The notes under the pieces are model-generated. The model searched no databases, was not told the origin of the DNA, and saw only the letters and a list, made by a program, of their open reading frames with translations. Shown here one piece after another: positions 3,977 through 18,838 of a DNA stretch of 22,686 nt (its first letter is position 1; each line of letters starts with the position of its first letter). Position numbers and translations under genes: made by a program. The stretch covers positions 1 to 22,686 of the IMG/VR virus record IMGVR_UViG_3300026097_000114; one strand, given 5' to 3'. This DNA is from a virus.

Positions 3977-5065
3977 ATGCTAGATTTTGTACAACAACTG
4001 TTAGAAAACGATGTGATTTCCGAAGATATGAAATCGGAAATTGAATCTGCATGGCAAACAAAGATTCAAGAAAACCGCGAACAAGTTAGCGCACAACTTC
4101 GCGAAGAGTTTGCTCAAAAATACGAGCACGATAAATCCGCAATGGTAGAAGCAGTTGAAAAGATGCTTGAAGATAGACTTCAAGCAGAACTTGGAGAATT
4201 TGCTGAAGACCGTCAAGGTTTAATCGAAGCACGAGCAAAATATGTCCAAAAGATGAAGAATGATTCTGCAGCTTTTGAGTCATTTATGCTTAAAAATCTA
4301 CAAAAAGAGATTGCTGAACTTCACGAAGATAAAAAGCGTATTGCTGAAAATGTCCAAAAATTAGAACAGTTTATTGTAGACTCACTTGCGAACGAAATCG
4401 CAGAATTCCAGTCTGACAAAAAAGATCTTGCTGAAACCAAAGTACGTTTGGTTAAAGAAAGCAAGAATAAGTTTGAAGAAGTTAAGCAAAACTTCGTCAA
4501 GCGTTCTGCTAAAATTATTGAAGAAACAGTATCGAAAGGTCTGCGTTCTGAAATGACACAGCTGAAAGAAGACATTGAAGCAGCCCGTAAAAATGACTTT
4601 GGTCGTAGAATTTTTGAAAGCTTTGCCAGTGAGTATGCTACAAGCTATCTCAACGAAAAGAGCGAAACTGCTAAATTAATGCAGGTTGTTAAGCAGAAAG
4701 AACTTGAATTAGTAGAAGCCGCAGAAATTGTTGCTGAAGCAAAACAACAAGTTAAAAGTAGGGAAAACGAAATTCAAAAGATCACTGAATCTGCAAAGCG
4801 TAAAGAAGTTATGAACGAACTTCTTGGACCGTTGGCACGCGATAAGCGTGAGGTTATGCAGGAACTTTTAGAATCAGTTAAAACCGAAAAATTACATTCA
4901 ACCTTTGAAAAGTACTTACCAGCCGTAATGGAAGGACAAGCACCTAAGAAAAAAGAAGCGTTGACAGAAGGCAAAGAAGTAACAGGCGATAAAATAAAGG
5001 CACAGACATCAGACGACAACAAAGTCGTTGATATAACAGACATCCGCAGGCTTGCGGGACTTTAA
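3977..5065 (+). CDS. 22: Prohead scaffold (core) protein gp22, long form
   Basis: Main scaffolding protein of the prohead inner core, around which gp23 assembles and which gp21 later degrades. The protein is almost wholly charged and helical (coiled coil), with many L-x-E and I-x-E gp21 sites. Its C-terminal part (about 275-318: KRKEVMNELLGPLARDKREV and MQELLESVKTEKLHSTFEKY, then LPAVME) is the block I recognise from marine T4-like gp22. At 362 residues it is well above T4 gp22 (269). The extra length includes four loosely repeated blocks starting L..E(I/L/M) near residues 68, 108, 137 and 189. AAGGAG (3965-3970) overlaps the gp21 stop and sits 6 bases before the ATG. The last codons form a GC-rich hairpin (5044-5057). 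Confidence 0.92.
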   Translation: MLDFVQQLLENDVISEDMKSEIESAWQTKIQENREQVSAQLREEFAQKYEHDKSAMVEAVEKMLEDRLQAELGEFAEDRQGLIEARAKYVQKMKNDSAAFESFMLKNLQKEIAELHEDKKRIAENVQKLEQFIVDSLANEIAEFQSDKKDLAETKVRLVKESKNKFEEVKQNFVKRSAKIIEETVSKGLRSEMTQLKEDIEAARKNDFGRRIFESFASEYATSYLNEKSETAKLMQVVKQKELELVEAAEIVAEAKQQVKSRENEIQKITESAKRKEVMNELLGPLARDKREVMQELLESVKTEKLHSTFEKYLPAVMEGQAPKKKEALTEGKEVTGDKIKAQTSDDNKVVDITDIRRLAGL

Positions 5066-5072
5066 TTAAAGT
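5044..5072 (+). other. Hairpin plus palindrome just upstream of gp23
   Basis: CCGCA-GGCT-TGCGG (5044-5057) is a 5-bp GC hairpin in the last gp22 codons. It is followed by a perfect 14-base palindrome ACTTTAATTAAAGT (5059-5072), which includes the gp22 stop. The AAGGAG ribosome site of gp23 starts 4 bases later (5076). This could mark a processing or stabilising element for the heavily expressed capsid message, or be chance. Confidence 0.3.
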
Positions 5073-5091
5073 TTTAAGGAGATATAGAAAA

Positions 5092-6273
5092 ATGTCACAA
5101 CTACTCGAGTCACGCTGGTCGGAAACCAAAGACGCACTTCTTGAAGGCCTAGAAGGTAACAAGAAGACAGTTATGGCAACTACTCTGGAAAATACCCGTA
5201 AGTATCTTGCAGAGAGTGCCACAGCTGGTTCAACTTCCGCCGGTAACGTTGCTACACTTAACCGTGTAATTCTACCAGTTATTAGACGTGTAATGCCTAC
5301 TGTCATTGCAAACGAATTGGTTGGCGTACAGCCAATGACTGGTCCAGTGGGTCAAATCCACACTCTACGTGTTCGTTATTCGGATGCGTTTTCTCCATCA
5401 GCTGGTACTTCTGTAACAGCAGGTGAAGAAGCACTATCACCATTCAAGATTGCTGAAGGATATTCAGGAAACGACACCACTACTGGTCAATTCCCTGCTT
5501 CAACAGCTGCTCTTGAAGGTACAGCTGGAAACAAGATGTCAATTCAAATCTTGAAGCAGACTGTAGAAGCTAAAACTCGTAAGCTCAGCGCACGTTGGAC
5601 TTTCGAAGCTGCACAGGATGCACAAGCACAGCAAGGTATTGATGTAGAAGCAGAAATTATGGCTGCTCTTGCTCAAGAAATTACCGCTGAAATTGATCAG
5701 GAGATCCTAGCATCTCTATCAACTCTAGCTGGAACAGCTGCATTGACATATGATCAGGCTGCTGTATCAGGTACTGCTACATTTGTTGGTGATGAACACG
5801 CTGCTCTAGCAGTTCAAATCAACCGTGTTGCAAACTTGATTGCACAGCGTACACGTCGTGGTGCTGGTAACTGGGCTGTTGTTTCACCAACAGTACTAAC
5901 ACTACTCCAGTCAGCTACTACTTCAGCATTCGCTCGTACTACAGAAGGTACTTTCGAAGCTCCAACTAACACTAAGTTTGTCGGTACTTTGAATTCAGCG
6001 ATGCGTGTATACGTAAACGGCTATGCTACAAGCGACGATGTTATTGTTGGGTACAAAGGTTCATCAGAATCAGACGCAGCTGCGTTCTATGCACCATACA
6101 TTCCATTGATGTCAAGCGGTGTTGTACTAGATCCGTCTACCTTCGAGCCAGTAGTTAGTTTCATGACCAGATACGGTTATGTAGAACTAACTAACACAGC
6201 ATCATCTCTTGGTAATGCTGCTGACTACCTAGGTAAAGTAGCTGTTTCTTCTGCAAACCTACGTTTCGCATAA
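5092..6273 (+). CDS. 23: Major capsid protein gp23
   Basis: Major head protein with an HK97-type fold that forms the hexamers of the shell. The conserved blocks agree with gp23: LNRVILPVIRRVMPTVIANE, LVGVQPMTGPVGQIHTLRVRY, KQTVEAKTRKLSARWTFEAA, QDAQAQQGIDVEAEI, RTRRGAGNWAVVSPTV, VGYKGSSESDAAAFYAPYIP and FEPVVSFMTRYGY. At 393 residues it is much shorter than T4 gp23 (521), with a small central insertion region. The N-terminus holds LLE (4-6, 16-18) and LAE (39-41); cleavage by gp21 after Glu41 would leave SATAGSTSAG at the mature N-terminus. AAGGAG (5076-5081) precedes the ATG by 10 bases. Arginine is almost always CGT here, unlike the AGA-rich neighbours, as expected for a very highly expressed gene. 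It ends 24 bases before a strong terminator. Confidence 0.97.
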   Translation: MSQLLESRWSETKDALLEGLEGNKKTVMATTLENTRKYLAESATAGSTSAGNVATLNRVILPVIRRVMPTVIANELVGVQPMTGPVGQIHTLRVRYSDAFSPSAGTSVTAGEEALSPFKIAEGYSGNDTTTGQFPASTAALEGTAGNKMSIQILKQTVEAKTRKLSARWTFEAAQDAQAQQGIDVEAEIMAALAQEITAEIDQEILASLSTLAGTAALTYDQAAVSGTATFVGDEHAALAVQINRVANLIAQRTRRGAGNWAVVSPTVLTLLQSATTSAFARTTEGTFEAPTNTKFVGTLNSAMRVYVNGYATSDDVIVGYKGSSESDAAAFYAPYIPLMSSGVVLDPSTFEPVVSFMTRYGYVELTNTASSLGNAADYLGKVAVSSANLRFA

Positions 6274-6297
6274 GTAAAACATTACTACTTAGTACGT

Positions 6298-6325
6298 AAA
6301 AAGGGCTTGTAAAAGCCCTTTTTTT
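6298..6325 (+). terminator. Rho-independent terminator after gp23
   Basis: AAGGGCTT (6301-6308), loop GTAA, AAGCCCTT (6313-6320), extended by AAA (6298-6300) pairing with TTT (6321-6323) and followed by further T. This gives an 11-bp stem and a U tract, typical of an intrinsic terminator. It closes the head-gene transcript. Confidence 0.9.
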
Positions 6326-6328
6326 ATG

Positions 6329-6337
6329 CTTAAATAA
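6329..6337 (+). promoter_or_regulatory. Late-promoter-like CTTAAATAA directly before a start codon
   Basis: TTAAATA (6330-6336) matches the late-type box seen elsewhere here and lies between the gp23 terminator and the ATG at 6342. A start point 6-7 bases downstream falls at the ATG, so a transcript from here would be leaderless for the small gene. The flanking A/T-rich sequence makes a chance match possible. Confidence 0.3.
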
Positions 6338-6341
6338 AAGT

Positions 6342-6596
6342 ATGAAAGACGAATTTGCAGAAGTCCGAAGTAAAATCAAAAAATATAAAAAAAGATTTCC
6401 TTTATTTCTTAAAGATATTCATCGCATAGAAAAAACAGTGGAAAATCATATTAAGTTACACAGTCAACATCTTGTAAAATATAAACAAACACATTCAAAA
6501 AAATATCTAGAAAAAGCCGAAAACGAAGTTAAACAAATTGAATATCTTCTATCTACTATTGATAAAATTGAGCTAATGGCACTACTTGCAAAGTAA
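6342..6596 (+). CDS. Small Lys-rich helical protein after gp23
   Basis: An 84-residue protein of unknown function, strongly basic (many Lys) and predicted all-helical with heptad-like spacing (FPLFLKDIHRIEKTVENHIK, then EKAENEVKQIEYLLSTIDKI). It sits alone between the gp23 terminator and the next promoter and leader. No Shine-Dalgarno site is visible before its ATG; only the TTAAATA motif lies there. Its codon use (AAA, AGA, ATT) matches the neighbouring genes. I recall small helical proteins after gp23 in marine T4-like phages, but no name can be given. A capsid accessory or DNA-binding role would be a guess from charge and position only. Confidence 0.7.
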   Translation: MKDEFAEVRSKIKKYKKRFPLFLKDIHRIEKTVENHIKLHSQHLVKYKQTHSKKYLEKAENEVKQIEYLLSTIDKIELMALLAK

Positions 6597-6601
6597 CCTT
6601 T

Positions 6602-6610
6602 GATAAATAC
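6602..6610 (+). promoter_or_regulatory. Late promoter GATAAATAC
   Basis: ATAAATA is one base from the T4 late -10 box TATAAATA. The 14 bases from 6604, TAAATACTATTGTC, recur at 11330 with one change (TAAATACTACTGTC), and both copies precede a long structured leader. The expected start point is about 6615-6617. This and the copy at 11329 are the best-supported promoters of the window. Confidence 0.65.
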
Positions 6611-6615
6611 TATTG

Positions 6616-6702
6616 TCTATAAACTAAGTGTGCCGCCAAAAGTGGTGGACTTATGCGGAAACCCACCGCGTAGACCTAGAACGTCAACATAAGGAGAAAC
6701 AA
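6616..6702 (+). promoter_or_regulatory. Structured mRNA leader with two tandem hairpins
   Basis: This roughly 87-base leader is clearly more GC-rich than its surroundings. Hairpin 1 is CCGCCA (6633-6638), loop AAAG, TGGTGG (6643-6648). Hairpin 2 is TTATGCGG (6651-6658), loop AAACCCA, CCGCGTAG (6666-6673), 8 bp including two G-U pairs. GGTGG (6644-6648) can instead pair with CCACC (6663-6667), which would break both hairpins. Hairpin 2 has a counterpart of the same size in the leader at 11341. The leader ends with AAGGAG (6691-6696) and ATG 6703. A GTG at 6628 opens an in-frame extension through the leader, which I reject as a start. Confidence 0.65.
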
Positions 6703-7143
6703 ATGGGACGCCCTATACAAAAAAGAAAAATTGGAACAGGTTCGGCTAAAATTCAGGTATCAAGTGCTCGTTTTACAGGCGGCAGTGTAATTACTGGAGG
6801 AAGTGAAAATCCTTTGTACATTGATCGTCAAAGAAGTTCTTTACAATTTATTATCAAAGATGTAAATGGCACAGAAAGTGAAAAATTACAACTTGTCGGT
6901 AAAGCTACGCCAGGTGAAGGCCAATTTAACATTATGGTAACACTAGATAATGTTGCTGATAATAATCTTGACGACTCTTCTGTGTATTATGTAGTAAAAC
7001 TGCACAATAGAACTGTTTCTGTTCAACCAGATGATGATCCATCTAATATGATTCATTTACCATATACACTACAAGCAGGTGAAAATGATCAAGAATTGCT
7101 AGGAGACGGATTCACCTTAGCAAATATTGATACACAAAGATAA
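6703..7143 (+). CDS. Small virion-type protein, unknown function
   Basis: A 146-residue protein starting MGRPIQKRKIG. The start at 6703 is set by AAGGAG 6 bases upstream; the GTG at 6628 in the same frame lies inside the structured leader. After a basic N-terminus it is beta-rich with many Gly, Asn and Asp, ending in YTLQAGENDQELLGDGFTLA. I recall small MGRP(I/L)QKR-type proteins among marine T4-like virion genes, with no defined role. It has its own promoter and structured leader, which suggests high late expression. It ends 6 bases before the next gene, which has only a weak ribosome site and is probably co-translated. Confidence 0.8.
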   Translation: MGRPIQKRKIGTGSAKIQVSSARFTGGSVITGGSENPLYIDRQRSSLQFIIKDVNGTESEKLQLVGKATPGEGQFNIMVTLDNVADNNLDDSSVYYVVKLHNRTVSVQPDDDPSNMIHLPYTLQAGENDQELLGDGFTLANIDTQR

Positions 7144-7149
7144 GAAAGT

Positions 7150-8121
7150 ATGAGTAAATTCATTCAAACAGATGGCGACTTTGGAATAAAAGTCGCAGAT
7201 GGCGGCAACATACTCTTCGACACTGGTGCAGGTGTCGGAGAAGTTCGTGTTACCGGAAACCTAAATGTTGAAGGTGATACATTTACAGTATCAGCTGAAA
7301 ACTTACAAGTAGAAGATAATTCAATTGTTTTAAATTTTGGGGAAACTGGTAATGGTGTTAGTCTACGATATGCTGGTATAGAAATCGATAGAGGCAATGC
7401 TACTAATGCCGCTATCATGTTTGATGAAAACGATGATACATTTAATTTTGCTAAAGGAACAGCTGATTCGGGTGATTTCGATTTTGAAGATAGTAAAATT
7501 AGAGTTAAAGAAATATTAACGAACAGTACCACCGACGAAGGTGATTTAATCTTAATCGGTGAAGGTACTGGTGTAATAAAAGTTATAGGTACTATTAATT
7601 ACGAAGATCAAGTTACAGAAGATGATGATATTCCTAATAAGAAATATGTAGATGACGCTGTAAGAAATAATCCGACATTCCAAATTGTTGATGATGATAC
7701 TCGTGTTATTGTAACTGATGTTAATGTACCAGGTGCACAGCAATTTTTATTAGATACTACTGGATACAGCACATTTGGCGAAAGTGGGATATCTGTAATT
7801 GTAGATGGTCAGTTGTCTACGCAATTTTACAAAGACTTTGTAATATTCCAAGACTTAGAGTTTAACAGAAACGAAATCACCACCGCTGGTGCAACTAACG
7901 AAAACATTGTGATAAGAACACAAGGAACTGGTAAGCTCGAAACAAATTATGGTATACAAATTGAAAAAATTGGTGTAGATCCTGCGTTTGTAAGTGATGC
8001 AGTTATTTTATACGCCAAAGAGCCTGACATAGGCGACACAGGATTATACTTTTCTAATTCAGATGAAAGTGCAGAATTAGTTAATAAAAACAGAGCACTA
8101 TTGTTTAGTTTAATATTTTAG
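7150..8121 (+). CDS. Fibre-like virion structural protein
   Basis: A 323-residue beta-rich protein. The N-terminal half has segments typical of marine T4-like structural proteins and of trimeric fibre shafts: VRVTGNLNVEGDTFTVSAEN (residues 33-52), LQVEDNSIVLNFGETGNGVS, GIEIDRGN and AAIMFDENDDTFNFA. Residues near 160-170 carry DDDIPNKKYVDDAV, the short helical linker pattern (PNKxYVDxAV) common in phage fibres. The C-terminal half is beta-rich and ends in hydrophobic LFSLIF. It probably belongs to tail fibre, baseplate or another surface structure; which one cannot be told. It shares the G.(L/I).(V/I)(E/S)G.. shaft style with the genes at 9039 and 11431. Confidence 0.8.
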   Translation: MSKFIQTDGDFGIKVADGGNILFDTGAGVGEVRVTGNLNVEGDTFTVSAENLQVEDNSIVLNFGETGNGVSLRYAGIEIDRGNATNAAIMFDENDDTFNFAKGTADSGDFDFEDSKIRVKEILTNSTTDEGDLILIGEGTGVIKVIGTINYEDQVTEDDDIPNKKYVDDAVRNNPTFQIVDDDTRVIVTDVNVPGAQQFLLDTTGYSTFGESGISVIVDGQLSTQFYKDFVIFQDLEFNRNEITTAGATNENIVIRTQGTGKLETNYGIQIEKIGVDPAFVSDAVILYAKEPDIGDTGLYFSNSDESAELVNKNRALLFSLIF

Positions 8122-8129
8122 GATAAAAC

Positions 8130-8510
8130 ATGTTATATAGTAAATTAGTTACATCAACGTCAACCACAGTGCCAGAACTGGTTTTTACGAGTACAACTAC
8201 AGGCGACCCAATCGGCGGTGCAATAGTTGGGCAGGAAAATGCTATTACTACTATGGTTTTGTGTAACACAGGAACTCCTGATTTAACAGACGAAAGCGTG
8301 AACACAGTAAGTGCCAGCGTTTATCTTGTAAAATCAGGAGAAAGTTATTCTGCGGCTAACCGTATAGTAAGTGACTTAATAGTTCCAGCAGGCGAAAGTG
8401 TATTTTTCAGTGATGAAAAAATAATTCTTAGTCCAGGTGATGAAATTTATGTAGGTACAACGTCAGCAAGTTTGCTTTCGGTAACTGTAAGTTCTTTTAA
8501 GGTTAATTAA
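8130..8510 (+). CDS. Small beta-sandwich-like virion protein (paralog of 12490 gene)
   Basis: A 126-residue, Ser/Thr/Val-rich protein with no signal peptide. Its pattern of strands is TMVLCNTGTPDLTDES, VSASVYLVKSG, DLIVPAGESVFFSDEKIILS and PGDEIYVGTTSASLLSVTVS. The same layout (VVGINLANT, VVANIFVIDE, IPIPPATSLKAITQGEKLIL and DATISYVEIS) occurs in the gene at 12490, so I call them distant paralogs. Each follows a fibre-like gene. A decoration or fibre-associated beta-sandwich role is an inference. AGGA (8120-8123) overlapping the upstream stop serves as the ribosome site. Confidence 0.75.
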   Translation: MLYSKLVTSTSTTVPELVFTSTTTGDPIGGAIVGQENAITTMVLCNTGTPDLTDESVNTVSASVYLVKSGESYSAANRIVSDLIVPAGESVFFSDEKIILSPGDEIYVGTTSASLLSVTVSSFKVN

Positions 8511-8511
8511 A

Positions 8512-9039
8512 ATGAAATTTTTAAAGAGCCAAACAACTTCAAAATACAGTCCTTCTGATAACACATTCTTTTCTAATCCGTACGGGCGAATCGTAATGGA
8601 TGCAAGAGGCGGCTTAATGATTCCTAAAGGAACTGAAGCCCAGCGACCTGATTTAGTAGGCGTAAGACAACCAGAAGATGCTAACGGTACCATAAGATAT
8701 AACACTGATACTAATGAAATAGAAGGATATGTGGGAGGAGCATGGGAAACTATAAGAGCACCAGGTGCTACCACAATATCAATTGAAACATTTGGTCCAG
8801 GAGATGCAACAGAAACTACTTTTGGGCCTTTAGCTAATGTTCCAGCAAGTGCTAATAACGTAATTGTGCTTGTAGAAAATGTAATGCAAATACCAACTAC
8901 TAACTATACTTTAGAACAGAGTGTAAGCGGAAGTTTATCAGGACCGGGTGCACCTTATACAGACGGATGGTATTTACAATTTACATCTCCTGTTCCGTTT
9001 AGTAAATTTGTAACGGTATTTTTTGGATTCGCTAACTAA
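8512..9039 (+). CDS. Virion structural protein with fibre adaptor motif
   Basis: A 175-residue protein. Residues about 41-80 (GLMIPKGTEAQRP, then GTIRYNTDTNEIEGYVGGAW) contain the RYNT..N..EGY.G..W adaptor seen near the C-termini of many phage fibres and, in variant form, in the genes at 9039 and 11431. The second half (VPASANNVIVLVENVMQIPT, then TNYTL) is a beta domain that I recognise from other marine T4-like structural proteins. It starts 2 bases after the previous stop, with AAGG about 9 bases upstream. Its stop overlaps the next ATG by one base (CTAATGG), so translation of the next gene is probably coupled. The exact place in the virion is unknown. Confidence 0.8.
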   Translation: MKFLKSQTTSKYSPSDNTFFSNPYGRIVMDARGGLMIPKGTEAQRPDLVGVRQPEDANGTIRYNTDTNEIEGYVGGAWETIRAPGATTISIETFGPGDATETTFGPLANVPASANNVIVLVENVMQIPTTNYTLEQSVSGSLSGPGAPYTDGWYLQFTSPVPFSKFVTVFFGFAN

Positions 9040-11315
9040 TGGCACAGCTTGGTAGAATTGCAGGTCATCTATTACAGGATAATCTTGTTAGAGAAGGTAT
9101 AGACCTTGCATTTAAAAATACCAGTTTCGATGCAGATCCAATTTTATTTTTAGATATAAACAATGGCAGAGTTGGTTTTAAAACTGACAGTCCTGTTTAT
9201 GATTTAGACATTAGAACAAATTTAAGCACCACAAATCTAGGTGCAACAAGCCAAGCAGAAATTGATCAAGTTTATATAAATGCTGCAGGTTTTATTACAT
9301 CGGGTACAGGTCCTATTAATATTTCTCCCCAAGGAGAAAATCCATTAATTATTCTAGAAAGACTGATAAGTGATAATTTACAAATAACTGATAATAAAAT
9401 TTCTAGTTTTGCAAACAGCAATATTGTATTTGATCCTAATGGATCCGGTACTGTTGAATTACAAACCAATGTTAATATTCAGGGTGATTTAGAAACCACA
9501 GGTGATATTAATATTTCAGGTGATCTATCAACTCCGCAAAATATTATAATTGGTGATAGTCCTTTAGATGTAGTACGAATAACTCCAGAATTAGAACAAG
9601 GCTTAACCACCGGCGCAGATTTAACATATAATTTAGGTAGTCAAGATAAACAATGGGGTGCTATATATTCTCCAGACATGACTAACATTGCAAATGTCAA
9701 TCCGGATAGAGCACGAATTTCGTCTCAACTATTAATAGATGGCGTAACAGGTGATATTAATCAGTTACAATCAAATGATAACACAATCTTAAAACCTAAT
9801 AGCGGCGTCTATAATTCTTTTGAGTTAGCAACAACACTAGATAATCCTAATTTGTATTCAACAACCCAATTTGATAGATTTGGTTTTAATGTCGGAATGA
9901 GTGATTCATACACTATCATAAGTGCTCCTCGAGAAGATGATTCTACAGGGTTAGATCAAGGTAAAGTTTATATTTTTAATAATAGCAATGGATCTTTAGC
10001 ACATACACTAGATAATCCGAACACATCAGGTACACCTAGTAATGATGAGTTCGGGTTCAAAGTTGCAATATCAGAATCTTATGCAATAGTATCAGCTCCG
10101 TTTGAATCTAGTAATTCGGGTGTTGCATATATTTTTGATACCGATACCGGTAATTTATTACATACGCTTGTGAACCCTAATGCATATGATGCTGCAACTG
10201 GCGACGAATTTGGAAGATTTGGTTTAGCTATAAATGAAACTTATTGTGCAATCAGTTCGGTTCCTGAAAACAATTTAAGCGGTGTTGTTTATGTGTTTGA
10301 TAATTTAACAGGGGCATTGGTCTACACAATCGATAATCCTAATGCATTCGATACTGAAGTGAATGACAGATTTGGTATAAGTTTAGATTTAAACAGCACT
10401 CATTTAATAGTCGGTGCATTTTTAGAAGATCAAGATGGGTTTACTGATACAGGTAAAGCATATATTTTTGATTTATCTGACGGAAGTTTATACCTAACAG
10501 TAGATAATGCAGACGATGTATTTGGCATAGATAATGATCGTTTTGGTAATAGTGTTTCTATTTCTGAAAATTATTTTGCAATAGGATCTTACACAGCAGA
10601 TACAGAAACTAATACCGAAACAGGTGTTGCATACATTTATTCATTTCCTAAAGGAGAATTAATCAATACATTACAAAACCCAAATAATTTTGGAACTGCT
10701 GATAATGACCGATTTGGCGAAGAAATAATAGTTACTGACGAATACACAATGGTATCTTCTATACAAGAAGATGACGCAACGGGAACAGACGTAGGTATTG
10801 TTTATATATTTCATACTATAACTGGTCAGCTTATAAAAACAATAGAAAATGAAAATGCATTTGGTACGACAAATCAAGATTATTTTGGATTTAGCATTGG
10901 TGCTTGCTCAACCAATCTTGTTGTAGGAGCTTGGAGAGAAGACGATGCTGGAGGCAATCAATCAGGTAAAGCGTATCTTTACACCGTAAAAATTCCAAAG
11001 GTCGAAATTGAAGATTTAACTTTTGATATTGAAAACACAGTTATATACAATAATTTAAATTCTCCAGTACAATTAAGAAATACAGGCATTGGGTACGTTA
11101 GGTTTAGTGATACAAATGGAATAGTTTTACCTAGCGGCCCTAATGCTGATAGACCTGCAACTCCAGAAGTAGGAGATACTCGATGGAATACAGAAGAACT
11201 TTATCTAGAGTGTTTTGACGGCACTGTCTACATTACTTCCATTGGACCTGGTGATCCGGTAACTCAAGATGATATGGATGAACTAGGTGTCTTATATAGC
11301 TTGTTCCTAGGCTAA
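9039..11315 (+). CDS. Fibre-like protein with inserted seven-repeat FG-GAP-like beta-propeller
   Basis: A 758-residue virion protein. Residues 1-270 (GRIAGHLLQDNLVREGIDLA, then FLDINNGRVGFKTDSPVYDL, FDPNGSGTVELQTNVNIQGD) are paralogous to the whole N-terminal part of the gene at 11431. Residues about 278-652 hold seven repeats of roughly 53 aa with the pattern (N)DRFG..(V/I).(I/M)....(I/V)(V/S)(S/G)A..ED....(S/T)G.(V/A)YIF....G.L..T(L/I).NPN. This resembles FG-GAP/integrin-alpha propeller blades, and seven copies fit a closed propeller. The C-terminal 100 residues return to the fibre type, with GDTRWNTEELYLECFDGTVY and a final LYSLFLG. A host-binding or adhesion role is likely but not shown. 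The start overlaps the previous stop by one base. Confidence 0.85.
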   Translation: MAQLGRIAGHLLQDNLVREGIDLAFKNTSFDADPILFLDINNGRVGFKTDSPVYDLDIRTNLSTTNLGATSQAEIDQVYINAAGFITSGTGPINISPQGENPLIILERLISDNLQITDNKISSFANSNIVFDPNGSGTVELQTNVNIQGDLETTGDINISGDLSTPQNIIIGDSPLDVVRITPELEQGLTTGADLTYNLGSQDKQWGAIYSPDMTNIANVNPDRARISSQLLIDGVTGDINQLQSNDNTILKPNSGVYNSFELATTLDNPNLYSTTQFDRFGFNVGMSDSYTIISAPREDDSTGLDQGKVYIFNNSNGSLAHTLDNPNTSGTPSNDEFGFKVAISESYAIVSAPFESSNSGVAYIFDTDTGNLLHTLVNPNAYDAATGDEFGRFGLAINETYCAISSVPENNLSGVVYVFDNLTGALVYTIDNPNAFDTEVNDRFGISLDLNSTHLIVGAFLEDQDGFTDTGKAYIFDLSDGSLYLTVDNADDVFGIDNDRFGNSVSISENYFAIGSYTADTETNTETGVAYIYSFPKGELINTLQNPNNFGTADNDRFGEEIIVTDEYTMVSSIQEDDATGTDVGIVYIFHTITGQLIKTIENENAFGTTNQDYFGFSIGACSTNLVVGAWREDDAGGNQSGKAYLYTVKIPKVEIEDLTFDIENTVIYNNLNSPVQLRNTGIGYVRFSDTNGIVLPSGPNADRPATPEVGDTRWNTEELYLECFDGTVYITSIGPGDPVTQDDMDELGVLYSLFLG
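9870..10995 (+). repeat. Seven tandem FG-GAP-like protein repeats
   Basis: The blades begin at FDRFGFNVG, NDEFGFKVA, DEFGRFGLA, NDRFGISLD, NDRFGNSVS, NDRFGEEII and QDYFGFSIG, each followed by a hydrophobic strand, an acidic Gly turn and G.(A/V)YI(F/Y). The DNA copies have diverged well beyond recent duplication, so this is an old array kept at protein level. Confidence 0.85.
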
Positions 11316-11430: not shown

Positions 11431-12483
11431 ATGGCGATTGGTCGTATTAGTGGTCCGCTCTTAAAAGCAAATCTCGTCCGTGACGGGGTTGATCTGGCTT
11501 TTGAGAACGACCTACTCTATCTTGATGTAAACAATGCTCGGATTGGTATTAACAATTCTAACCCTTCCACGGATCTTGACGTTATTGGCACAGCTCGTGC
11601 AACAACAGCAGTAGTAGATAATGAGGTACAGGTTGGTGAGTTCACTATTTCTGGAAACACTATTGCCAGCAATTTAAACACAATTAGCTTCCAACCTTCT
11701 GGAAATGATCCAGCAATTTATAATTCAAAAATGCAGATTGACGATTTCCAAATTGAAGGAAATAAGATTTCTACGTTTGTATCTAATTCAAATATCGAAA
11801 TTGAACCGAATGGTACAGGAACTGTTGAAATAATCGGTAATACAAACATTACCGGTGATTTAGGTGTATCAGGAACAGTAACAGCACAAGGTAATGTTGT
11901 TATTCAAGGTGATATTACAATAGGTGATGAAAACACTGACACAATAGAATTTAATGCCAGTATACAGAGTGATATTATTCCAGAAACCACAAATACGTTC
12001 AGTATTGGGAGTCCTACGGCACGTTGGTCTACTATTCACACGCAGGATTTATTTGCAGATTACTTAAACTTACCTACATTAGATATAGGTGATATCAGTT
12101 TTAGAGATAATGAAATTATAGCTAATAACGGATTGGATATTATACTAGACGGAAACGGCACCGGCGGCGTCCAGCTAGGCAACCTTTTAGTTACAGATAA
12201 CATAATTACAAATGTTGCAAACAATCAAATTACTCAAATAGTTCAAACAGGAACTGGTTATTTCAAGATAGATAGTGATAATGGGTTTGTTCCTCCAAGA
12301 GGAGGGAATGAAACTAGACCTACAGCCTATGCTGTTGTAGGTATGACAAGATACAATACAGATGCAAGAGCATTAGAAGTATGGGACGGTAATGCGTGGG
12401 CAAGCCCTGCAGGTGCCTCTGGTGCAGTATCAGAAATTCAAGCAAATGACATTGCGGCTACATTTGCTTTAACATTAGGATAA
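11431..12483 (+). CDS. Fibre-like virion protein, short paralog of the 9039 gene
   Basis: A 350-residue protein. Its start (MAIGRISGPLLKANLVRDGV, then LYLDVNNARIGINNSNPSTD) matches the gene at 9039 (GRIAGHLLQDNLVREGIDLA), as do IEPNGTGTVEIIGNTNITGD and a Gly/Asn shaft with G(D/N).(T/V)...G repeats. The C-terminus has GMTRYNTDARALEVWDGNAW and ends in FALTLG, parallel to LYSLFLG. It lacks the propeller. A surface fibre or tail-associated structure is the likely role. The start is fixed by AAGGAG 5 bases upstream. The first 200 or so bases use CGT, CTC, GGT and CCG more freely than the rest, which is AGA/ATT-rich, so the 5' end looks compositionally different. Confidence 0.85.
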   Translation: MAIGRISGPLLKANLVRDGVDLAFENDLLYLDVNNARIGINNSNPSTDLDVIGTARATTAVVDNEVQVGEFTISGNTIASNLNTISFQPSGNDPAIYNSKMQIDDFQIEGNKISTFVSNSNIEIEPNGTGTVEIIGNTNITGDLGVSGTVTAQGNVVIQGDITIGDENTDTIEFNASIQSDIIPETTNTFSIGSPTARWSTIHTQDLFADYLNLPTLDIGDISFRDNEIIANNGLDIILDGNGTGGVQLGNLLVTDNIITNVANNQITQIVQTGTGYFKIDSDNGFVPPRGGNETRPTAYAVVGMTRYNTDARALEVWDGNAWASPAGASGAVSEIQANDIAATFALTLG

Positions 12484-12831: not shown

Positions 12832-13251
12832 ATGGCAAATACATATTATTTAGGAAGAGATCCAGAAGCGGTATTAGGTGAGAGTACCCGTTTCTTTTAT
12901 GCATTAAGAAGAAACCAAGACGGCGAATTATTTTTTCAAAGAATAGATCTACTTAAAGACCAAGATGTAGTAGATATAAACAAAATAGGTATACCAGATG
13001 ATACCTTTGAAGATTTTGAAGAAGGGATTGATTTTTTTGAAGGTATAGATAATAACCATGTAAATCAATTTCCTAACATTACCTATCCACAATATAGATG
13101 GGACGACAGATCAATTTTTTATTACATAGACGAAGAAGGCAGATTTGTGCAAAGAATTAACAGAGGATATGATTATCCGGAAGGTATATCTTCAGATGAA
13201 TCACAGCCGCCCGTTGCTGATTCAACTGAACTAGGAGGAACATATGGCTGA
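12832..13251 (+). CDS. Acidic, aromatic-rich small protein, unknown function
   Basis: A 139-residue protein starting MANTYYLGRDPEAVLGESTR. It is rich in Asp, Glu, Phe and Tyr (FEDFEEGIDFFEGIDNN; YRWDDRSIFYYIDEEGRF) and ends in a flexible Pro/Ser/Asp tail. No catalytic motif or known domain is visible. AAGGA overlaps the previous stop, about 5 bases before the ATG. Its stop overlaps the start of the giant gene by 8 bases, and the perfect AGGAGG (13233-13238) of that gene lies inside its last codons, so expression of the two is tightly linked. This suggests an accessory or assembly partner of the giant virion protein, which is inference from context. Confidence 0.75.
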   Translation: MANTYYLGRDPEAVLGESTRFFYALRRNQDGELFFQRIDLLKDQDVVDINKIGIPDDTFEDFEEGIDFFEGIDNNHVNQFPNITYPQYRWDDRSIFYYIDEEGRFVQRINRGYDYPEGISSDESQPPVADSTELGGTYG

Positions 13252-16200
13252 GTTTAAGTTTAGTAGACTTAGATATAGATGGCGAGGCGAATGGTCTACA
13301 TCTACAGACTATATTTTAGACGATGTAGTCTACTATCGAGGAAAAAGTTGGGTATGTGTTAGACAACATACAGCATCCGACTTTGCAGCCGATGTAAACT
13401 TTAGAAATCCAGGTGACACAAATACTTCTCCTGCATGGTTATTGATGACAGAAGGTTATGAGTGGAGAGGTGAATGGGAATCTGGAGTACTGTATGAACC
13501 AGGAAACATTGCATTATTCGGTGGCGTAATTTACCTATGCATCGAATCTCATACTTCATCTAGTTTCAACACTGAAAGTTTTTATTGGACAGTATATGCT
13601 TCTGCAAATAAGTGGAGTGAAAACTGGACTCCAACCACAACATACGGTGTCGGAGAAGTTGTAAAATATTTTGGTACGGTATACAAATGTAGAGTAGGAC
13701 ATGATTCTCAAGCTTTATTCGAAGATGACATCAACAAGTGGACTGTGTTATTTTCTGGTGTTGAATACAGAGGAGATTGGATTGCGTCTAGAAGATTTGC
13801 AGTAAACGATATTGTAAAAAATGGCGGTACAATTTTTAGATGCGTAGAGGCCCACACTTCAACTACATTGTTTGATAGCACAAAATTCGAAGTAGAATTT
13901 TTTGGTAACGAATTCGGCGGGGTATGGAATGCAACCACGGCTTATGCACAAGGATCTGTTGTAAGACACGGTGGATTTTTATATTATGCCAAAACAAACA
14001 ATTTAAACAGCAATCCAGGCGACGAAGCACTGGCTGGACCTAGTCCAGACTGGGCATTGTTGTCAAAAGGCACAAATCTTAGAGGTGATTGGTCAGCTGA
14101 ATTAACCTATAAAACAGGTGATGTCGTTCGCAGAGGCGGAACCCTCTATATTGCAATAAACGACTCTTCCAGTGACGGTTCTACGCTGGATTATCTAGAC
14201 TCTAGCAACTGGGAAGTTGTAATTCCAGGAGACAAATTTAGAAGTTATTGGACAGAAAATACTTCTTACGAATTAGGCGATGTAGTCCTGTTTGATGGAA
14301 CCTCTTACAGAGCAAACTTTGCACATATTTCTTCGGCAGACAACTTTCCAGGTGATAATGGTAATGCATTGTTTTATTGGGACATAATTTTACAATCTCC
14401 GGATGAAACAGGCTTGACTGACCAAGCCGACTTGTTATCCTTCGGTACGACACGATCAATAAAAGGAGACGGAAGTACATTAGGGCCGAAAGGTGTAAAT
14501 ATCGGCAATGAGGATGAGTTGCTTCGTGTCTCTTCGACAAATGAACTTGATTATAGAAAGTGGAGAAACACAAATAGATTTTTCTATGTCGCAAAAGAAG
14601 GTGTAGACGACGATCGAGATCCTGATCAAGGTATAAATCCATTTAAACCTTTTAGAACAATTGCTTTTGCTGCGAAGAAAGCAAATGACGGATTTGAAGG
14701 AACAACAAAAATCAGTGTAGGGCCTGGAGAATTTAAAGAAGTCTTACCAATTTCAATACCATACAATACGGTTATGCAAGGCAATGAATTAAGATCAACT
14801 ACGGTTCTTCCAAACGATCCTACCACAGAGAATGTAAATGCTACATTAGTTAGACAAACTTCTGTTTTAAACCGAATAATCGGTTTAATACCCCAGTTAA
14901 TGATCACAAGAAATGTAGTAAAAACACCAGCAAATATTCTTGATCCTGTGTACCTTTTCGATGAAGTAGCCGGAATAGATGAGTTAGGTAATCCTATAAC
15001 AGTCCAATCTGCTGTGGTAAGCGATCAAGATACGGTTGATGTTATTCAAGATTTATTCTCTCAGGTTACTCAATATTTAAATTTCTTTGTTCTAGGAGTA
15101 GGTGCAAGTGCTCCTGCCATTTCAGGTTCTAATACTCGAATCTCAACAGAAGCAGTAACAAATGCTGTAAGAATTCTAGAAGCAAACAAAGAGTTTTTTG
15201 CACAAGAAGCATTTGCATTTTTGACAGCTGAATTTCCTACATACAATTTTGTAGAACAACGTGTAAGAGAGAATATTCTTAAATTTGTAAATGCTTTTGA
15301 ACATGACATTCAATATCCTGGAAATTATGAAACCTTGCTTGCTGCAAGATTTAGAAGAAATCAAATTTTAGGATCAAAAACTGAAGACATGTTCTATTGC
15401 CGTGATGCAACAGGCGTAAGAGATTGCACCTTAGGCGGACTAGAAGGTACACTGAACCCTTCAGGCGTATTTGAATTATTCCAAAGACCCACCGGTGGCG
15501 CATATTGTTCGTTAGATCCAGGTTGGGGTCCTGATCACGAAGACTGCTGGATTATGACTCGTTCACCGTATATTCAAGGTGTTACAACAACAGGATATGC
15601 AGCTATTGGTCAAAAAATTGACGGTGCTCTCCATAATGGAGGTAACAAGTCAATGGTATCGAACGATTTTACTCAAGTTATTTCCGATGGTATAGGCGCA
15701 TGGGTAGATAATAACGGCAGAGCAGAACTTGTATCTGTGTTTACATATTATGCTCAGGTAGGATATCTTGCAACTAACGGCGGTATAATTCGGTCTGCGA
15801 ACGGAAACTGCTCTTACGGAAATTACGGAGCATATGCCACTGGATTTGACGAATCTGAAGTTTATGAAACTGCTATAATTGACAATCAAAGCGAAAATCA
15901 AGCTCTAATAGATAAAGCATTTGCCGGTGAAGTAAACGATGAAATATTGGCATTAGAATATCTAAATGCAGGAATAAACTATTCTCAGGCAAATGCTACA
16001 TTTTTAGGCGCAGGTATTAACGCAGACGTTGAATTTGATGATTTTAGAAACAATGCTATTTTTAGAGCATTTATTTCCAATCCACTAGATTCTGGTGTTC
16101 CAGGCGGCGGCGGCTATGCTCAAATAGGTAATAACGCCCAAACTGGTGATGAATTTTCTATTACACTTGCATCTAGTTATGAAGGATTAGAAGAAGAAAT

Positions 16201-18838
16201 ATTAGGTTTACGGGTTATAATTACGTCTGGTACAGGAACAGGGCAATACGGTTATGTAAATGCCTACAATGATATCACTAAAGTTGTAACGGTTTACAGA
16301 GAAAGTGATAATCAGCCAGGATGGGATCATGTTGTATCAGGTACACCGCCTATAAGACTCATGGATACCAGTACAACTTATCGCTTAGAACCCAGACCTG
16401 TAATAGACGATCCAGGATTCTCAGCAGCTAACATTGAATTAGGTGCCCAAACAGTTTGGGCTAATGGTGCATTTGGCGGAATAACTCAAGTTTACTCTAA
16501 CGTATCTGCTGGCTTAGGTACAGGAGATGTAGAAGAACAAGACGGATTAACTCCAACTCCAGCAACATTTGATGTAGTGCGTAGAGGTGAGGATTATACC
16601 GTTACTCTAGCTGACGGCGGCGCAGGTTATGCAGAAAGAGATGTTATTAGGATTCTTGGATCGGAGTTAGGCGGCGTAACTCCTGATAACGATATAACAA
16701 TCACAGTGATTTCTGTAAGTGATGATTCTACTAACAGCATTTTAGGTTTTAGACCATCGGGTGTTGCACCAACTGGTAGATTTGTGATTACTGCCGCTAC
16801 AGGTAACACCGTTACTTATTCAGATAACGGGGATGATTGGGAAACATCTGCTTTACCAAGTAACGGAAATTGGATTTGTATAGCAAACGGAAATAATCGT
16901 TTTGTTGCAATAGAAGGCGAAGACGGCGCATTTAATCCTTCAAATCAGGCTGCATACTCGTTAGACGGTATATCTTGGACAGCAGTAACTATGCCTTCAA
17001 GCCAAAAATGGTCGGATTTAACATTTGGAGATGGTTTGTTTGTTGCTGTATCTAAAACAGCAAATGCAGGAGCTTTCAGCACAGATGGAATAACTTGGAC
17101 TACAACTACACTACCTACAGCCCCTGATTCTACTCTCAATGAATGGATAGGTGTAACATATGGCGCCGGGCATTACGTAGCAGTTTCTAATAGTAATAAT
17201 ATTTCAGCTAAAGGCACTTACAATCCAGGTACGAATAATATTTCTTGGGAATTGCATATTATGGATGTTATTGATGACTCCAGCCAAAAAGATTGGGTAA
17301 ATGTCGAATGGGGCAACAACAGATATGTAGCAATTTCCTCACAAGGCGATGTAGCATATAGTTTCGATGGCGATTTTTGGTATCCTGCATCAATGCCATC
17401 ACCTGACGGATCTTCTCAGATGACGTGGACCGATGTGCTCTACGCAGATGGAATTTTCTTTGCGGTGTGTAACACTGGAGGAAGGACAATCGGCGGCGAT
17501 GCAACTACAGGTCCGACTACTTATTGTGCAACTTCACCAGACGGTATTGTTTGGACAAATAGATTTATGCAATCTGAAGCAAATTGGAGTGCGGTAATTT
17601 ATGGAGCTCCTGACACTACCCTAGGCGATTCTGCTATACAAAGTAAGAATCCTATGTTTATTGTAATCAACGAAGATTTATCAAATGTAGCACAAAAAGT
17701 ATTCACTGGTGCAAAAGCAATAGTAAGACCAGAAATGATTAGTGGTCGAATCATTCAAATTAATTTATTGGATCCAGGAAGTGGGTATAGAACTGCTCCT
17801 AACTTTACATTTATTGATCCAAATAATACTGGAGATGTATTTGTTACACCTCGCATCGGCGACGGGGTGCTTGCACAACCGAGTTGGAAAAATAGAGGGT
17901 TAGGATATAGAACTTCATCTACAACTGTAAATATTTCTGGTAATGGTGTAGCTGATATTATTCCAATAAACGAAAATTTAGTTTTAGATAAGTTATCTAA
18001 ATACCCTGGACCAGGCACTCAATTATTAATAGACGGATTATCAGATGTTTATACGGTTATATTAGTGACTGAATTAGGGCAAAACGAGGATGGTACGTTT
18101 AAATCTGCCATAACAGTAGATCCTACATTTAGCACAGAAGTTAATCCGGAGCATTTAGCACAAGTTAGAATAAGAGAAAGATATTCACAATGTCGTATTT
18201 CAGGACACGACTTCTTAGATATCGGAACCGGAAACTTTGTAGAAACTAATTATCCAGAAATTTACTCAAGTGGTGCGTTTTTCCGTTTTTCTCCAGAAGA
18301 CGAAGTTACCGAAACAGATGGCGGAAGAGTATTTTATGCATCTACTGACCAAGACGGTAACTTCAGGGCAGGTGAATTGTTTGCTGTAGAACAGGCAACT
18401 GGTATTGTAACAATTAGTGCCCAGTTCTTTGATTTAGATGGTCTAAGCGAATTACGATTAGGCGGAATTAGAGTAGGCGGTTCAGGAGTTGTAATTAGAG
18501 AATTTTCAACAGATCCCCTATTCACAGAAGATTCAAATAATGTTGTACCTACGCAAAGAGCAATTGCAGCATTTTTGCAAAATCAATTGAGCGTAGGTGG
18601 TTCAGAGTTAACACTAAGCAATTTTGTTGCTGGTACAACCAGCATAGGCCCAGATTCAATCGGATCTAGTGTGGGAATTTATACAAGATTCCCAGAAAGA
18701 TTAAACTTCCAGGCTAATCCAGAAGAATTAGATGCAGAAGGAAATATTATTACAGGACAAGGTGAAGTTAATGGAACAATTCTTGCAAACAAACTATTTT
18801 ATGCATCGTTTGCAGACGATCCTAACCGCCAAACCTGA
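13244..18838 (+). CDS. Giant 1864-aa adhesin-like virion protein
   Basis: Order of parts: residues 11-385, seven Trp/Gly repeats (YRWRGEWSTSTDYILDDVVY type) resembling CBM5/12 chitin-binding modules; 444-520, FFYVAKEGVDDD...NPFKPFRTIAFAAK and KEVLPISIPYNTVMQGNELR, the start of a right-handed beta-helix-like region; 644-703, a divergent copy of a helical domain shared with the next two genes; 716-930, a block strongly conserved in marine T4-like phages as I remember it (RDATGVRDCTLGGLEG, DPGWGPDHEDCWIMTRSPYI, GALHNGGNKSMVSNDFTQVI); 1126-1145, 1509-1530 and 1553-1570, G.GY mini-repeats; 1178-1455, five Asp-box-like S.DG..W repeats, a probable propeller; then a C-terminal beta-rich domain with VPTQRAIAAFLQNQL. 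The start has AGGAGG 5 bases upstream. It is probably a receptor- or glycan-binding tail or surface fibre; no catalytic site is evident. Confidence 0.88.
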   Translation: MAEFKFSRLRYRWRGEWSTSTDYILDDVVYYRGKSWVCVRQHTASDFAADVNFRNPGDTNTSPAWLLMTEGYEWRGEWESGVLYEPGNIALFGGVIYLCIESHTSSSFNTESFYWTVYASANKWSENWTPTTTYGVGEVVKYFGTVYKCRVGHDSQALFEDDINKWTVLFSGVEYRGDWIASRRFAVNDIVKNGGTIFRCVEAHTSTTLFDSTKFEVEFFGNEFGGVWNATTAYAQGSVVRHGGFLYYAKTNNLNSNPGDEALAGPSPDWALLSKGTNLRGDWSAELTYKTGDVVRRGGTLYIAINDSSSDGSTLDYLDSSNWEVVIPGDKFRSYWTENTSYELGDVVLFDGTSYRANFAHISSADNFPGDNGNALFYWDIILQSPDETGLTDQADLLSFGTTRSIKGDGSTLGPKGVNIGNEDELLRVSSTNELDYRKWRNTNRFFYVAKEGVDDDRDPDQGINPFKPFRTIAFAAKKANDGFEGTTKISVGPGEFKEVLPISIPYNTVMQGNELRSTTVLPNDPTTENVNATLVRQTSVLNRIIGLIPQLMITRNVVKTPANILDPVYLFDEVAGIDELGNPITVQSAVVSDQDTVDVIQDLFSQVTQYLNFFVLGVGASAPAISGSNTRISTEAVTNAVRILEANKEFFAQEAFAFLTAEFPTYNFVEQRVRENILKFVNAFEHDIQYPGNYETLLAARFRRNQILGSKTEDMFYCRDATGVRDCTLGGLEGTLNPSGVFELFQRPTGGAYCSLDPGWGPDHEDCWIMTRSPYIQGVTTTGYAAIGQKIDGALHNGGNKSMVSNDFTQVISDGIGAWVDNNGRAELVSVFTYYAQVGYLATNGGIIRSANGNCSYGNYGAYATGFDESEVYETAIIDNQSENQALIDKAFAGEVNDEILALEYLNAGINYSQANATFLGAGINADVEFDDFRNNAIFRAFISNPLDSGVPGGGGYAQIGNNAQTGDEFSITLASSYEGLEEEILGLRVIITSGTGTGQYGYVNAYNDITKVVTVYRESDNQPGWDHVVSGTPPIRLMDTSTTYRLEPRPVIDDPGFSAANIELGAQTVWANGAFGGITQVYSNVSAGLGTGDVEEQDGLTPTPATFDVVRRGEDYTVTLADGGAGYAERDVIRILGSELGGVTPDNDITITVISVSDDSTNSILGFRPSGVAPTGRFVITAATGNTVTYSDNGDDWETSALPSNGNWICIANGNNRFVAIEGEDGAFNPSNQAAYSLDGISWTAVTMPSSQKWSDLTFGDGLFVAVSKTANAGAFSTDGITWTTTTLPTAPDSTLNEWIGVTYGAGHYVAVSNSNNISAKGTYNPGTNNISWELHIMDVIDDSSQKDWVNVEWGNNRYVAISSQGDVAYSFDGDFWYPASMPSPDGSSQMTWTDVLYADGIFFAVCNTGGRTIGGDATTGPTTYCATSPDGIVWTNRFMQSEANWSAVIYGAPDTTLGDSAIQSKNPMFIVINEDLSNVAQKVFTGAKAIVRPEMISGRIIQINLLDPGSGYRTAPNFTFIDPNNTGDVFVTPRIGDGVLAQPSWKNRGLGYRTSSTTVNISGNGVADIIPINENLVLDKLSKYPGPGTQLLIDGLSDVYTVILVTELGQNEDGTFKSAITVDPTFSTEVNPEHLAQVRIRERYSQCRISGHDFLDIGTGNFVETNYPEIYSSGAFFRFSPEDEVTETDGGRVFYASTDQDGNFRAGELFAVEQATGIVTISAQFFDLDGLSELRLGGIRVGGSGVVIREFSTDPLFTEDSNNVVPTQRAIAAFLQNQLSVGGSELTLSNFVAGTTSIGPDSIGSSVGIYTRFPERLNFQANPEELDAEGNIITGQGEVNGTILANKLFYASFADDPNRQT
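13274..14400 (+). repeat. Seven Trp/Gly carbohydrate-binding-like protein repeats
   Basis: The units begin YRWRGEW, YEWRGEW, NKWSENW, VEYRGDW, NEFGGVW, TNLRGDW and DKFRSYW. Each is about 53 residues with the pattern W....Y..(G/D)D(V/I)V.(Y/F).G..Y.(C/A)...H.S.......W. The spaced Trp/Tyr residues and the GDVV.Y.G..Y core recall ChtBD3/CBM5-12. Confidence 0.8.
15173..15349 (+). repeat. Helical domain, copy 1 (divergent)
   Basis: ILEANKEFFAQEAFAFLTAE followed by FEHDIQYPGNYETLLAA aligns with copies in the next two genes, but the C..D.GY..DA core is degenerate here. Confidence 0.6.
16775..17600 (+). repeat. Asp-box-like repeat region in the giant protein
   Basis: YSDNGDDW, YSLDGISW, FSTDGITW, YSFDGDFW and TSPDGIVW, each followed by a W(T/S).(V/L).(Y/F/W)G...(F/Y)VA(V/I)-type strand. 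This is the pattern of BNR/Asp-box beta-propellers, with one residue fewer than the canonical S-x-D-x-G-x-x-W. Confidence 0.75.

Follow-up and report, generated by a model that had tools for sequence, protein, structure and literature searches.

An integrin-like FG-GAP_2 propeller, predicted from sequence, inserted in a fibre-like protein of a T4-type phage

Genes A and B and their neighbourhood

The window, by which we mean the whole stretch of DNA analysed here (22,686 nucleotides from IMG/VR record IMGVR_UViG_3300026097_000114), carries a T4-type major capsid gene (positions 5092–6273, plus strand; phrog_138, E = 1.2e-103) that marks the type of the phage. Its product is 73% identical to the major capsid protein of Sinorhizobium phage Phosso and is nearest to the capsid proteins of jumbo T4-like phages with varied hosts; a megablast search of the window against phage records returned no match. 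This capsid gene, together with portal, head protease and long tail-fibre genes, surrounds gene A (9039–11315, plus strand), an open reading frame that codes for a fibre-like, putative virion protein of 758 aa with a propeller. The PHROG matches of gene A are weak and all of unknown function, including those of its C-terminal domain, and we infer its assignment to the fibres from its neighbours and from shared repeats. Its conserved N- and C-terminal parts, with an inner propeller that is present or absent at several positions in relatives, fit a tail fibre.

Other genes of the same neighbourhood include one for a 239-aa phrog_30607 protein (1733–2452) that lies between the portal and head protease genes. 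Positions 13244–18838 encode a tail-fibre-like protein of 1864 aa (phrog_9851) with five CBM_5_12 matches (E = 1.3e-34); it is a further candidate, near the propeller gene, for binding to hosts or particles. In the record of the closest relative, L008, the major capsid gene was matched in two pieces with internal stop codons (75259–76430); a shift of frame, an intron or a faulty assembly could each account for this.

Gene A and gene B (11431–12483, plus strand; 350 aa) are tandem paralogs, and the pair is syntenic in related loci; gene B, recognized by its similarity to gene A and by its L008 counterpart, has no propeller. Residues 4–214 of the gene A product align with residues 3–207 of the gene B product (35% identity, E = 9e-36), and residues 674–758 with residues 265–350 (35% identity, E = 3e-12). 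These parts correspond to an N-terminal scaffold domain (residues 1–214; 9039–9680, plus strand), which is also similar to gene A of L008, and a C-terminal scaffold domain (residues 674–758; 11058–11315, plus strand). Immediately upstream, positions 8512–9039 of the plus strand encode a small protein related to the C-terminal domain: it has PHROG matches in common with genes A and B, and its counterparts in relatives are matched by the C-domain profile. A first-pass annotation, made by reading the sequence without database searches, had described the genes at 9039 and 11431 as sharing their terminal parts, with repeats in the former only. The alignments confirm the shared parts, and blades are found in gene A alone. 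That every paralog might carry the propeller is ruled out, as neither gene B nor the syntenic gene A at more than 10 related loci contains it.

The repeats and their predicted fold

The repeat region of gene A (9870–11003, plus strand) matches the Pfam family FG-GAP_2 (PF14312) with E = 1.9e-45 and a score of 153.2 bits, which exceeds the curated cut-off of 23 bits. A PF14312 search over the whole window gave seven matches, all in this region and none elsewhere. The repeat units start with DRFG, DEFG or DYFG motifs at residues 278, 336, 389, 443, 500, 557 and 614, are 42–58 residues long and have a mean pairwise blade identity of 38%. Both the motif starts and the Pfam matches agree with the count of seven and the coordinates given in the first-pass annotation. 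A chance or low-complexity repeat is ruled out by the strength of the Pfam match together with the closed predicted fold.

AlphaFold2 modelling of residues 254–661, run together with two relatives, gave a propeller with a pLDDT of 80.7 and a pTM of 0.87, whose strand pattern is that of seven four-stranded blades. In the full-length model, 28 propeller strands extend from the closing strand at residues 261–267 through residues 641–650. Outside the propeller that model is poor (pLDDT below 50 for residues 1–259), and the badly predicted shaft and ends were left out of propeller placement. The last repeat unit has no fourth strand of its own; the strand predicted at residues 261–267 (7–15 in A1 numbering; window 9819–9839, plus strand) would close blade 7 as its outer (velcro) strand. 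The insert is located where the annotation had placed it, but because this strand precedes the first DRFG motif the cassette is slightly longer than described, covering approximately residues 256–653 (window ∼ 9804–10997, plus strand), as judged from alignments with blade-less gene A proteins and from the AlphaFold strands at 261–650. The insert of gene A is predicted to be a closed seven-bladed FG-GAP propeller, complete as the annotation had supposed.

The annotation had also pointed to integrin alpha, and in a Foldseek search against the PDB integrin-alpha heads ranked first (E = 1.3e-13, TMq 0.65). VIA-align gave Z values of 33–35 across ∼ 340–367 residues, and all of its top 50 entries were integrins; sequence identity in the fold alignments with integrins is 11–20%. 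The integrin alpha head and the viral propeller thus have in common the predicted fold, the seven blades and the FG...GA(P) repeat logic, whereas the integrin-type repeat and the DxDxDGxxD loop of the former are replaced by FG-GAP_2 without a calcium loop in the latter. In some blades of integrin alpha, a DxDxDGxxD calcium loop connects strand 1 to strand 2; this motif is absent from the window propeller and from all 754 distinct blades of the wider set. Window-type blades, unlike those of integrins, have a conserved EDD..G motif in the 2–3 loop. Searching PDB sequences with a profile of the propeller gave no significant match (best integrin chain, E = 0.29), and PF14312 was the only Pfam family found in the propeller at E ≤ 0.1, with no integrin-type repeat.

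In the propeller tree, 51 propellers from viral contigs, including that of the window, group in a single clade (99/97) that is separate from the bacterial propellers; 17 of the 51 are labelled as fibre propellers, most of them with the N/C scaffold. Among the bacteria sampled, which are represented by only 11 loci from a genome scan, the nearest relatives of the viral clade are Planctomycetota. Bacterial FG-GAP_2 proteins, such as those of Planctomycetota, share the sequence family and the blade count but fall outside this clade, as do the propellers of cyanophage S-TIM5 and phage C48C1. The S-TIM5 protein (H6WG31/AEZ65754) has the same propeller fold (TMq 0.67) and is annotated as virion structural, but it is a free-standing propeller of 407 aa without the N/C fibre scaffold. 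The annotation's term 'eukaryote-like' therefore holds as a statement on fold, with integrin heads as the best match, and is not supported as one on sequence, given the position of the viral clade beside Planctomycetota, the lack of a significant integrin sequence match in the PDB and the missing calcium loop. Giant-virus propellers, from pithovirus and others, are also close by fold comparison. A giant-virus origin of the contigs is nevertheless unlikely, despite a pithovirus protein being the top match in a BFVD fold search, since 11 of the 13 propeller-bearing records checked contain a T4-type major capsid gene.

Insertion, recurrence and divergence

Syntenic gene A proteins without blades (463–641 aa) were found in L015, L016, L019 and L022–L028, and their flanks are continuous. 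The L016 junction '...SNEDTMLVSGTG-DYFINGTKIETNN...' corresponds to '...SNDNTILKPNSG-[propeller]-VEIEDLTFDIENT...' in the window. When the flanks are joined, those of the window, L008, L047, L088, L092 and L106 are matched by blade-less scaffolds right through the junction, and so are those of L098 (at both of its propellers), L116, L118, L120, L125, L097 and L061. The clearest case is the pair L047/L055, in which a 432-aa propeller sits at one single point of L055: residues 1–828 of L047 are 68% identical to residues 326–1158 of L055, and residues 1261–1770 are 55% identical to residues 1156–1669. A search of all 55,817 bases of the L055 record for FG-GAP_2 gave no match. Because the joined flanks are matched continuously by related fibres without a propeller, we regard the propeller of gene A as a clean insertion of ∼ 398 residues. 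The insertion in a fibre paralog that the first-pass annotation proposed is thus seen twice over, in gene B and in blade-less gene A proteins that span the junction, and the boundaries it suggested looking for are visible as scaffolds continuous across the propeller site.

Other inserts were noticed in blade-less proteins. Gene A of L015 (3958–5880) has one of ∼ 130 aa near residue 97, gene A of the L016 group (L016–L028) has one of ∼ 75 aa near the C-terminus, and that of L025 has an insert of ∼ 110 aa at the propeller site.

When viral contigs were scanned with the alignment of propellers, 126 relatives were recovered, of which 77 distinct loci were retained. Among fibres with the N/C scaffold, the start of the propeller falls close to residue 132 in L092, L098, L106 and L118; at residues 231–255, near the site used in the window, in L116, L120 and L125; at residue 344 in the gene B lineage of L088–L091; and at residue 853 in L047, with a second L098 propeller at residue 1176. 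In a tree of the scaffold only, the presence or absence of the propeller requires seven changes, at least four of which are forced by well supported branches. The domain capture that the annotation had suspected is supported by these data and, moreover, appears to be recurrent, with several scaffold sites and at least four gains or losses.

The other scan matches are free-standing or multi-propeller proteins, which were found in many contigs. The L098 gene at 4479–10202 encodes a fibre of 1908 aa with two complete propellers (residues 129–541 and 1176–1583). Proteins of L063, L081, L093 and others consist almost wholly of FG-GAP_2 blades, 14–23 each, in several adjacent genes. Further FG-GAP_2 matches lie in frames of 4634, 3381 and 5230 codons in the L008 record (near 43055–43528) and the L088/L090 records, and a giant virion protein of S-MbCM6 has comparable matches.

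Between the window and L008, the propellers are only 38.5% identical, compared with 73% for the N part and 63% for the C part of gene A, 82% for gene B, 89% for the gene at 8512 and 92% for the major capsid protein over a 270-residue segment. On the scaffold tree the window and L008 pair as sisters (100/99), whereas the propeller tree does not place their propellers together. A shared origin for the two propellers is not rejected (AU test, p = 0.31), and we therefore do not claim a replacement; fast divergence could account for the difference.

The blades can be aligned to the register DxFGxSVAISGNYAIVGAYxEDDAGGTxSGKAYIFNVTTGALLHTLDNPNAYGTS and, apart from a few loop positions, are highly conserved. 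The six most variable register positions (5, 20, 2, 19, 28 and 27) are all in or adjoining the 4–1 and 2–3 loops, which the topology of four-stranded blades puts on one face, and it is the 4–1 and 2–3 loops that form the ligand face of integrin alpha. Mean loop variability is similar on both faces, so that this one-sidedness is a pattern of the extreme positions only. We also sought, across 49 viral propellers, an invariant residue of the His/Tyr/Arg/Lys set specific to one blade and found none: the conserved positions all follow the repeat. The lack of such an extra residue in any one blade speaks for binding over catalysis.

Possible roles and known counterparts

With moderate confidence, we propose that the gene A propeller is an exchangeable closed module set in a loop of a phage fibre and binding the host surface; its place on a trimeric fibre, its exposure, its ligand and its part in host choice are all putative. 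The gene A product would be a tail-fibre-like virion protein of a phage of the T4 superfamily, whose repetitive shaft would accommodate the closed propeller in a loop connecting two shaft strands. The ends of the cassette are expected to lie side by side because its first and last strands are predicted to pair in the same blade, and such adjacent ends would allow it to be plugged into a loop with the scaffold unbroken. Attachment and assembly of the fibre would fall to the conserved N- and C-terminal parts, which gene B also has, and the propeller would project sideways from the shaft. Its variable face, made of the 4–1 and 2–3 loops as in integrin alpha, would bind a glycan or protein ligand on the surface of the host, and phages would swap propeller cassettes between fibres.

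The propeller might instead be a general sticking or decoration module of low specificity that keeps the virion close to cells, polymers or particles without deciding which host is infected. The free-standing or multiple propellers in so many contigs, as well as blades that vary at few loop positions, would suit such a module, but generic glue would not be expected to differ between close relatives much more strongly than its flanks do, nor to show extreme variability on one face, and we find this explanation rather unlikely. A structural part, serving as a spacer or as a docking site for an adjacent fibre or baseplate protein, would agree with a location inside the virion gene block and with a ligand that is putative. 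However, related phages without the propeller keep the syntenic genes A and B intact, so that it is dispensable in the family, and its varied positions along the scaffold are ill-suited to a fixed contact; of the explanations considered here, a purely structural role seems the least probable, and very improbable.

An enzymatic domain, a polysaccharide lyase or depolymerase, has in its favour that the phage folds predicted to degrade polysaccharides include propellers (PMC11326577) and that a propeller lyase, 7esk_A, is among the weaker Foldseek matches (E = 1.2e-9). Related fibres also have weak pectinesterase-like matches beside the propeller or in its place; in the blade-less fibres, a Pfam search for other cargo found weak pectinesterase/DUF1565 matches only. 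Since the 49 viral propellers have no blade-specific invariant set and the best fold matches are the non-enzymatic integrin heads, we regard catalysis as improbable. Binding of the host surface by an exchangeable propeller is the reading that we retain.

Domain shuffling in phage tail fibres and spikes is known as receptor-binding fibre mosaicism (PMC10684548). Host-facing domains are likewise exchanged on a conserved scaffold there, whereas the unit exchanged here is a closed propeller in the interior of the chain; the text of PMC10684548 has no mention of propellers or FG-GAP. FG-GAP proteins of the prasinovirus MntV1 have been proposed to act in attachment (PMC11467894), but MntV1 is an algal virus and its FG-GAP is not a phage fibre insert. 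The suggestion in the same paper that MntV1 may be the first virus confirmed to have FG-GAP repeats is contradicted by the phage records described here, which carry such repeats. In the open-access literature searched, we found no description of FG-GAP propellers in phage tails. The known parts, i.e. fibre mosaicism, FG-GAP_2 propellers and the integrin-like fold, are joined here in a way that we did not find described in that literature.

More tentatively, and as a possibility that we would rate somewhat short of even, closed integrin-like FG-GAP_2 propellers may form a mobile pool in T4-type phages, each transferred as an intact cassette to one of many different loops in a common fibre scaffold (that of fibre A, that of fibre B, or twice in the same fibre), with ligand specificity evolving through changes at six positions on the top face of each blade; they would then be an unreported class of phage receptor-binding module. 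If the proposed role is right, a probable receptor-binding module can be named for uncultured T4-type phages, and a whole propeller would be exchangeable as a single plug-in unit. The six variable positions per blade would then offer a sequence mark for the prediction of specificity, and phages and animal cells would use the same propeller face for binding to surfaces without close sequence kinship.
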